This document shows, piece by piece, positions 8,751 to 31,960 of a stretch of 64,000 nucleotides of DNA. Numbering within the stretch: the first letter of the stretch is position 1; each line of letters starts with the position of its first letter. Made by a program: the position numbers and the translations under genes. The notes beneath the pieces are model-generated. The model saw nothing but the letters and a program-made list of their open reading frames with translations. It had not been told where the DNA came from and did not search any database. The stretch spans positions 372,001-436,000 of the forward strand of contig NZ_VYQE01000004.1 in assembly GCF_008710275.1 (NCBI RefSeq), written 5' to 3'. Origin of the DNA: Histidinibacterium aquaticum (GTDB lineage: Bacteria; Pseudomonadota; Alphaproteobacteria; Rhodobacterales; Rhodobacteraceae).

Positions 8751-8780
8751 AAAAGGGCCGCCCCGGCGATGGGGCGACCC
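8751..8780 (-). terminator. Rho-independent terminator
   Basis: On the minus strand GGGTCGCCCC, loop ATCGCC, then GGGGCGGCCC (10 bp with one G-U pair) is followed by TTTT. It closes the short transcription unit at 8751-8969 and separates it from arfB. Confidence 0.7.
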
Positions 8781-8847
8781 TTCGAAAGTTTCGGAGGTGG
8801 GGTCGGTTAGGATCCCCAACACGGGGTTTGAAATCCCGAGGGCTGCC

Positions 8848-8904
8848 TCAGGAAATCGCCTCCCACGCTGTTCCGACACCTCTCTCCAATCTCTTTCTAG
8901 ACAC
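8848..8904 (-). CDS. Possible 18-residue leader peptide
   Basis: A GTG codon lies 7 nt after AAAGGAGG, within a stretch complementary to the extreme 3' end of 16S rRNA over about 15 bases. The frame encodes a basic-then-neutral peptide (MSRKRLERGVGTAWEAIS) and stops at TGA. The GGAGGTG at 8910-8916 could pair with CACCTCC at 8793-8799 just before the terminator. No homologue is recognised. Such a strong SD on so short an ORF suggests either real translation or a regulatory role. Confidence 0.35.
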   Translation of the reverse strand: MSRKRLERGVGTAWEAIS

Positions 8905-8986
8905 TGGATCACCTCCTTTCATTTGGTTTCGCCTGACCGGGAGCGTTGCACAGATCTGGTGTATGTCAAATGAATTTACGCAAGCC

Positions 8987-31783: not shown

Positions 31784-31918
31784 TACCCCGCCCGGAACCG
31801 GAGCCCCGGGTTTCCGATAGTGTCCATCCGCCGCGGTCCGTGCCGCCGATTCCGGCGTCCTGCCCGATTTCGCGGCTTGCCGCAGCGCCACCCGCGCCGT
31901 AGATGCCGCGGTGGGACA

Positions 31919-31959
31919 CCCCTCCCCAACGAGGGGCGTATATCTGAGAGGGTATCAGA
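31919..31959 (+). promoter_or_regulatory. serC-type leader RNA (two hairpins)
   Basis: CCCCT (31919-31923) pairs with AGGGG (31932-31936), and TCTGA (31943-31947) pairs with TCAGA (31955-31959), the second loop GAGGGTA holding the Shine-Dalgarno just before the serC ATG. Two small hairpins with the SD in the second is the arrangement of the 'serC' RNA motif known from Alphaproteobacteria. Matching was by eye. Confidence 0.6.
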
Positions 31960-31960
31960 A

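Follow-up and report, generated by a model that had tools for sequence, protein, structure and literature searches.

We detected a small unit on the minus strand of Histidinibacterium aquaticum (8969-8751 of the 64,000-nt stretch of DNA analysed here, called the window). The gene upstream of it is yhhQ, for a queuosine precursor transporter (TIGR00697, 90.8 bits against a cut-off of 50.95), and the gene downstream, on the same strand, is arfB, for a ribosome rescue factor (8590-8171; NCBIfam NF006718, 179.5 bits, cut-off 100), which is followed by a gene of the lactate/malate dehydrogenase family. The features of the unit are as follows.

8964-8969 (-): -35 box TTGACA, from the sequence and its fixed spacing in relatives
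8942-8950 (-): candidate extended -10, TGC AACGCT, after a 16-nt spacer; a reading of the sequence with a weak match to the consensus
8904-8920 (-): maximal Shine-Dalgarno (SD) GAAAGGAGGTGATCCAG, a 17-nt complement of the 16S rRNA 3' tail; conserved sequence
8848-8904 (-): GTG-started 18-codon ORF VSRKRLERGVGTAWEAIS with a TGA stop at 8850-8848, from sequence comparison
8873-8877 (-): GTCGG, 5' arm of a predicted helix with CCGAC
8802-8806 (-): CCGAC, 3' arm of the same predicted helix
8793-8799 (-): anti-SD CACCTCC, partner of GGAGGTG, from the predicted fold and pairing counts
8751-8783 (-): intrinsic terminator of about 12 pairs with the loop ATCGCC, then TTTT, from sequence and fold

The final base of GAAAGGAGGTGATCCAG is also the first base of the start codon, and on the minus strand a folded stretch lies between the ORF stop and CACCTCC. 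A first-pass annotation made from the sequence alone had proposed this anatomy, which is right and was, if anything, understated. The TTGACA-like box is present at 8969-8964, the SD that it described as complementary to the extreme 3' end of 16S rRNA matches exactly over 17 nt (8920-8904), the GTG-initiated ORF has its 18 codons at 8904-8851, and the CACCTCC noted as complementary to the GGAGGTG of the SD (8799-8793) is paired with it in the predicted fold. Its 10-bp terminator with TTTT stands as a hairpin followed by the T run, with a stem predicted to be longer, at about 12-13 pairs.

A simple consensus promoter scan found no sigma-70 site at the locus, and a terminator scan does not flag the hairpin at 8783-8751, whose stem is followed by only four T. 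Because the consensus scans flagged no promoter, support for TTGACA was taken from its fixed place in relatives. Among 55 loci of the Rhodobacteraceae type (defined below), TTGACA with at most one mismatch occurs 48 times at 55-46 nt before AGGAGGTG and at most six times in any other 5-nt bin; this pile-up at one distance is much weaker in the other groups. The element is probably transcribed in H. aquaticum.

The 17 nt of GAAAGGAGGTGATCCAG are exactly complementary to the 3' end of the genome's own 16S rRNA (L031, read as 16S from its sequence), and AAAGGAGGTGATCC occurs at two places in this genome, the complement of 16S and the minus-strand unit. Before the starts of other ORFs the longest exact complement of the 16S tail is 8 nt, against 17 here, in a comparison that covers 193 mechanically listed window ORFs of at least 150 aa, spurious ones included, with starts in the first third. 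An identity of this kind could also mark a chance match or a scrap of reversed 16S rDNA. The likeness to 16S ends at the start codon (comparison with L031), and the conserved SD, start, frame, stop and terminator described below rule such an origin out, its remaining probability being negligible.

Distribution and genomic setting

Using the 21-mer GAAAGGAGGTGATCCAGTGTC with up to two mismatches, we found the element in 119 of 150 genomes of Rhodobacteraceae (at least 95% complete), in single copy each, with 0 matches of a reversed-pattern control. By a covariance model built from 45 relatives (R1), 18 of the 31 family genomes that lack the 21-mer have a strong match over the full length (E at most 1.7e-8). 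Of the other 13, five gave weak short matches and eight gave none, and these 13 of the 150 genomes are thus without a strong match by 21-mer or R1. When the element's stretch of the window was the query of a DNA search, 57 of 101 relatives gave a match, several of these to the terminator or the SD only.

The pattern AAAGGAGGTGNTCNNRTGTC was identified in 79 of 385 genomes of a class-wide draw (control 0) and in 50 of 299 genomes of a phylum-wide draw; by hand count, the 299 comprise 86 genomes of the class, 50 of them with the pattern, and 213 others, none with it. At least 119 stretches carry the pattern in a scan of named genomes; of the 80 listed titles, 77 refer to Alphaproteobacteria, as such or by a member, and the other three go no further than Proteobacteria. 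The pattern used for the named genomes forced [AG]TGTC, so the start codons of these loci are no evidence. Loci obtained from the DNA search, from R1 and from a search with the Rfam family CC2171 (RF01867) were not forced by the pattern, though the CC2171 model contains the SD block. One genome (G072) has two copies of landing site and start (C1:805113-805132 (+) and C1:2922049-2922068 (-)), and the other pattern-bearing genomes of the class-wide draw have one each.

SD and start are present in all 178 candidate loci (L001-L181 minus L031, L032 and L057), which reduce to 172 unique sequences and to 97 representatives less than 80% alike. A terminator-like hairpin was detected in 151 of 174 loci, where shuffles average 9.0. 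We refer to the clades as Rhodobacteraceae-type, Sphingomonadales-type, VSH and MSS, which are working names; loci without an accepted terminator were excluded from the clade groups, for which 149 were used (55, 18, 44, 20 and 12). Peptides of the MSHG type account for 35 entries, 18 of them in the Sphingomonadales-type group; most of the others lack an accepted terminator, and MSHG entries of another ORF length were assigned to another group. The minus-strand unit is a real, widely conserved small RNA gene.

In the Rhodobacteraceae-type group, 53 of 55 loci have yhhQ upstream and 43 of 55 have arfB downstream, each gene on the strand of the element; the downstream flank is at least 700 nt long in 48 of the 55. 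The 94 loci of the other groups have arfB nearby twice, once downstream on the same strand; the Sphingomonadales-type loci have a neighbour set of their own, and clustering of neighbours showed no gene common to the clades beside the element. Since neighbours are fixed within orders and other in other clades, we treat the element as a unit of its own: the RNA looks like a free-standing unit with a fixed place within orders and a place elsewhere in others. This fits the sRNA with a coding element that the first-pass annotation had suggested, given a conserved free-standing unit with promoter box, open frame and terminator. Its second suggestion, an attenuator-like RNA, does not hold as a leader of the downstream gene. 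A cis leader or attenuator of arfB would explain why this gene follows on the same strand here and in most Rhodobacteraceae-type loci and why the RNA ends in a terminator; however, yhhQ is the more constant neighbour even there, and the single same-strand case among 94 loci, together with the different neighbours of the Sphingomonadales-type loci, makes it very improbable. As the function of the family it was rejected, because other clades have other neighbours.

In three related loci (L042, L043 and L045), the RNA lies upstream of a dnaX-like gene (named from sequence) on the same strand. The serC leader RNA (RF00517) at 31909-31960 (+), with 73.6 bits, is the only Rfam match of the window above gathering, and a search for tmRNA returned 0 genes in the window with ARAGORN and only the serC leader with Rfam at gathering.

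Reading frame, peptide and landing site

Among the 97 representatives, a stop within codons 2-16 was found in 2 loci in frame 0, compared with 47 and 38 in the other frames. For codons 2-18 the corresponding values are 0 versus 36 and 44 in 75 Rhodobacteraceae-type loci. The Rhodobacteraceae-type ORF set comprises 59 loci selected by peptide motifs, a choice that favours an open frame to about codon 8-13, and 18 diverged loci not so chosen; the latter have 0 stops in codons 2-18 versus 8 and 12 in the other frames. The ORF is exactly 18 codons long in 71 of the 75 loci, and codon 19 is TGA in 34, TAG in 28, TAA in 9 and TGG in 0 (Fisher p 2.7e-12, with related sequences treated as independent), a stop usage for which base pairing alone would not suffice, since it would not avoid TGG. 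The 18 diverged loci keep the frame and ATG, GTG or TTG at a gap of 5, 6 or 7 nt from AGGAGG.

Across all 97 representatives, the ORF has 14-27 codons in 94 (outliers 31, 36 and 59) and codon 2 is serine in 96, its TC being forced by the pattern in part. Measured from the SD, the stop codon stands at a mean of 0.56 of the distance to the terminator (150 loci, sd 0.10). These comparisons suggest selection on the start codon, on its spacing from the SD, on the open frame and on the stop at codon 19. Long ORFs follow the landing site in L141 (59 aa, an Azospirillum record) and in L165 (36 aa), which may represent a different use of it.

The pN/pS ratio is 0.86 for ORFs of the Rhodobacteraceae type, whose other frames give 0.76 and 0.77; it is 1.25 for those of the Sphingomonadales type (other frames 0.70 and 0.62) and 0.81-1.05 for the remaining groups, so that the overall range of 0.81-1.25 is not clearly below that of other frames. 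Mean amino acid identity in the diverged set is 0.27; each of the other two frames gives 0.26. Class-wide, the peptides belong to unlike types (VSRxxLERGVGT, MSHGSA, VSHCH and MSSD/E). Because start, frame and stop appear selected and amino acid identity is no higher than in other frames, it is translation that appears to be conserved and not the peptide, and we infer that the element is translated in H. aquaticum as well. As far as these comparisons go, a selected ORF with an unselected peptide is an unexpected property beside a named sRNA family.

A gene for a small protein, or a dual-function sRNA whose peptide matters, would account for the similarity of the peptides within the Rhodobacteraceae-type loci (VSRxxLERGVGT), and the detection of the SEP1 protein described in the accessible text of PMC10117765 would favour it if SEP1 is an equivalent ORF. 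Against this stand the pN/pS values, the identity in the diverged set and the unlike types across the class, and the 'LE' of the peptide is encoded by bases that in predicted folds pair with UCCA before the start. A conserved peptide was therefore rejected as the function on the grounds of pN/pS and an identity like that of other frames, and we consider a reading in which the peptide matters improbable.

Beyond GAAAGGAGGTG, the match to 16S is gone in 14 of the 18 most diverged relatives, where complementarity is about 11 nt. A stretch close to GAAAGGAGGTG is all that these relatives keep, so the full 17 nt are typical and not essential. The class-wide pattern left the A of GGTGATCC free, and at this position only A or G was found in 80 of 80 places (hand count); A and G are both able to pair with U of 16S. 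Among the family places, a mispairing C stands at this position in 7 of 119 (hand count). For the predicted duplex of SD and 16S tail, the medians of all groups lie between -30.1 and -32.2 kcal/mol. Such strength in every group, and the restriction to pairing bases in the 80 places, would be expected of a decoy or sponge, the third suggestion of the first-pass annotation, in which the RNA holds 30S subunits through its complement of the whole 16S tail and the short ORF lets ribosomes leave. The mispairing C and the shortened match of the diverged relatives fit it less well. A decoy would moreover need neither an open frame nor a fixed stop, and the gene is nearly always single-copy, all of which leaves it quite unlikely.

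Pairing between the two ends of the RNA

Compared with dinucleotide shuffles, the predicted fold has a z of -3.51, with 0 of 200 shuffles as good, and it pairs GGAGGTG with CACCTCC and GTCGG with CCGAC. A partner of the SD was found anywhere between stop and terminator in 54 of 55 Rhodobacteraceae-type loci versus 28.4 by shuffling; since this shuffled expectation is high, the pairing test was redone on the last 30 nt before the terminator. There, a full 7-nt partner of GGAGGUG is present in 52 of the 55 loci (11.4 expected by shuffling), and 50 of the 52 partners lie 8-13 nt from the terminator. The partner occurs in eight spellings, of which CATCTCC (22) and CACCTCC (20) are the commonest; these spellings come from fully paired loci only, keep the pair by construction and are not evidence for it. 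The same GGAGGUG partner was identified in 11 of 18 Sphingomonadales-type loci versus 1.5 expected, in 2 of 44 of the VSH group (1.7 expected), in 0 of 18 of the MSS group (0.8) and in 2 of 11 remaining loci (0.8).

SD/anti-SD pairing is supported by these predictions in the Rhodobacteraceae-type family, and by the same counts the anti-SD is a feature of Rhodobacteraceae and of some Sphingomonadales-type loci rather than of the class as a whole. With a frequency at chance level in VSH and MSS, it gives no basis for a class-wide role. The first-pass annotation had proposed conservation of SD, ORF and anti-SD in close relatives as a check on its reading; all three are kept there, and of the three it is the anti-SD that does not extend across the class.

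Pairing of another kind was predicted for codons 2-7. With the locus's own 3' arm, the mean duplex energy is -13.8 kcal/mol in VSH, -15.4 in Sphingomonadales-type and -10.4 in MSS loci, compared with -6.5, -8.0 and -7.7 kcal/mol with the arms of other clades and -7.8, -8.7 and -7.4 kcal/mol with a stretch further upstream. The own arm also beats the arms of clade mates in VSH (-11.2) and MSS (-8.1). In the Rhodobacteraceae group it is no better than those of clade mates (-10.5 and -10.5), so this helix is without covariation there. What the clades have in common, by these modelled energies, is a link by pairing from the 3' end of the RNA to either the SD or the 5' end of the ORF.

Alignments of the four clades (A1-A4) hold 45 of 54, 32 of 42, 14 of 18 and 18 of 20 de-duplicated rows, with rows dropped by eye. 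RNAalifold on A1 does not pick the SD/anti-SD pairing, whose support is the single fold and the partner counts. For the VSH and MSS alignments it gave few pairs besides the closing helix and one hairpin or the terminator, and thus few in the inner domain. An automatic RNAalifold helix in columns 8-18 of all four alignments was disregarded because it lies inside the SD.

The predicted cost of opening the SD has a median of 10.8 kcal/mol in the Rhodobacteraceae-type group versus 4.7-6.9 in the other groups. This bears on a stabilising role, in which SD and a short translated stretch would shield an sRNA with a working 3' domain from 5'-dependent decay. Several features suit such a role, namely an SD near the probable 5' end, a frame and stop conserved where the peptide is not, and a compact layout with its own terminator. 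Yet an SD predicted to be closed in the Rhodobacteraceae-type loci would serve it poorly, and no seed common to the clades was seen by eye in alignments A1-A4; we regard this role as unlikely.

A candidate ribosome-gated RNA and related systems

The layout, conservation, frame, stop and pairing make it very probable that the element is a free-standing, translated small RNA. The data point to a role that needs a ribosome to initiate, travel a short way and terminate, and for which the product hardly matters; among such roles we favour ribosome gating. The RNA would then be a two-state device. Without a ribosome it would be closed, with the SD paired (here to CACCTCC); the long match would let in a 30S subunit whose 16S tail is intact, and the ribosome would translate the 18 codons to the apex of the domain and terminate. 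Its passage would open the 3' half (here with the C-rich anti-SD stretch) or guard the RNA from decay. In this way the RNA might signal the capacity for translation initiation or react to it, and the peptide would be discarded. We propose this ribosome-gated mechanism tentatively and, as a whole, give it somewhat less than an even chance. In a wider form of it, which we put forward with more doubt, the element would be a class-wide housekeeping RNA that exists to be translated and gauges the supply of free, intact 30S subunits. The ribosome would be its ligand and the ORF a measured path of mostly 18-26 codons, giving a peptide too short to emerge from the exit tunnel, and the output would be the folded 3' half.

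If ribosome gating is right, the little-studied CC2171 family would be a nearly always single-copy RNA of many Alphaproteobacteria with selected translation. Its peptide-agnostic ORF would be unusual among natural free-standing RNAs; we found no earlier report of such an RNA in the open-access literature. It would also call for caution with labels, as 'non-coding' sRNA or 'new small protein' may fit neither in its usual sense.

The RF01867 model matches the window over positions 1-159 of 159 with 46.8 bits (E 6.1e-9), below its gathering threshold of 75, so the window is not a CC2171 member by the curated test. The likeness consists of the 5' block GAAAGGAGGUGAUCCAGUGUCU, then a folded domain and the position of the terminator, with an end-to-end fit to the model. 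In contrast, the CAUUGUC/GACAAUG helix that closes CC2171 just before the terminator is absent here (fold, alignments A1 and A2), and the SD is predicted to be paired by CACCTCC. Judged from sequence, the element belongs to an alphaproteobacterial group that includes or neighbours CC2171, either as a homologue with a changed domain or with only landing site and layout in common.

The 29 other loci from the RF01867 search all have SD and start, the model itself holding the SD block. RF01867 matched 69 of 289 genomes of a class-wide draw, 9 above the cut-off. Of 14 named control genomes it matched two, Caulobacter vibrioides and Deinobacterium chartae, with one of these two matches above the cut-off; because of these control matches, the weak matches may include chance ones. 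None of 12 relatives (three of the window's ORF type and nine of others) passed its gathering threshold. It seems that the curated model takes in a single clade out of at least four; it could be widened, since these loci from the window's family and other clades do not pass. R1 matched 17 of 18 other-clade loci over at least 120 nt, with 26-51 bits versus 167 for the window, cross-clade scores that are helped by landing site and terminator.

A search of the open-access literature gave no functional study of CC2171, and we saw no mention of an ORF in its Rfam name, type (sRNA gene) or consensus or in the table line of PMC11701678. The family is unnamed in the accessible text of the Caulobacter sRNA papers PMC12559287 and PMC11005374. 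RNA-seq of M. huakuii gave a 215-nt product annotated as CC2171, which according to the accessible part of the report was not among the nine sRNAs picked for Northern blots (PMC5596092). Published evidence on translation is mixed. The Caulobacter ribosome-profiling paper describes its mostly intergenic ncRNAs as untranslated, and CC2171 does not come up in its accessible text.

According to the accessible text of PMC10117765, SEP1 of S. meliloti has 23 aa and a pI of 4.18, is conserved in Rhizobiaceae, has the highest translation efficiency among 54 sORFs and was seen by Western blot of a tagged fusion and one peptide-spectrum match. A 23-aa ORF in three genomes of one family, which we take to be rhizobial, has a pI of 4.41, 4.68 and 5.94. 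SEP1 possibly corresponds to it, a likeness drawn from length and, for two of the three, pI rather than from the SEP1 sequence. Four loci (L224-L227, in G681, G669, G476 and G534) have the landing site GAAAGGAAGGTGATCC with an extra A; behind it stands an ORF of 23-24 aa with the pattern MSNEISDLVTGM...RQPSL, a candidate match to SEP1.

Dual-function sRNAs and small mRNAs, such as Pos19 of R. sphaeroides and rnTrpL/peTrpL of S. meliloti, likewise have a short ORF in a small transcript. Of the properties by which dual-function sRNAs are recognised, a conserved open frame with a ribosome-binding site is found here and a conserved peptide is not. The peptide peTrpL is described as a functional product of a leaderless ORF (PMC10117765, accessible text), whereas the element here has a maximal SD and an unconserved peptide. 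The anti-SD sRNAs SisA-D of Caulobacter resemble it in having a C-rich stretch able to pair with an SD. In the accessible text of PMC12559287, the 10-mer of SisA with the anti-SD signature is thought to act on targets; the stretch here is instead predicted to pair with the RNA's own SD. Extended-SD mRNAs, known from S. aureus and from rpsU of many Flavobacteriales, have additional pairing with the 16S tail before the start, as here. As far as the accessible texts go, those of S. aureus are mRNAs and uORFs that belong to known genes (PMC13009471), and rpsU encodes bS21 (PMC9976891); unlike these, the element described here is probably a separate small RNA with a peptide-agnostic ORF.
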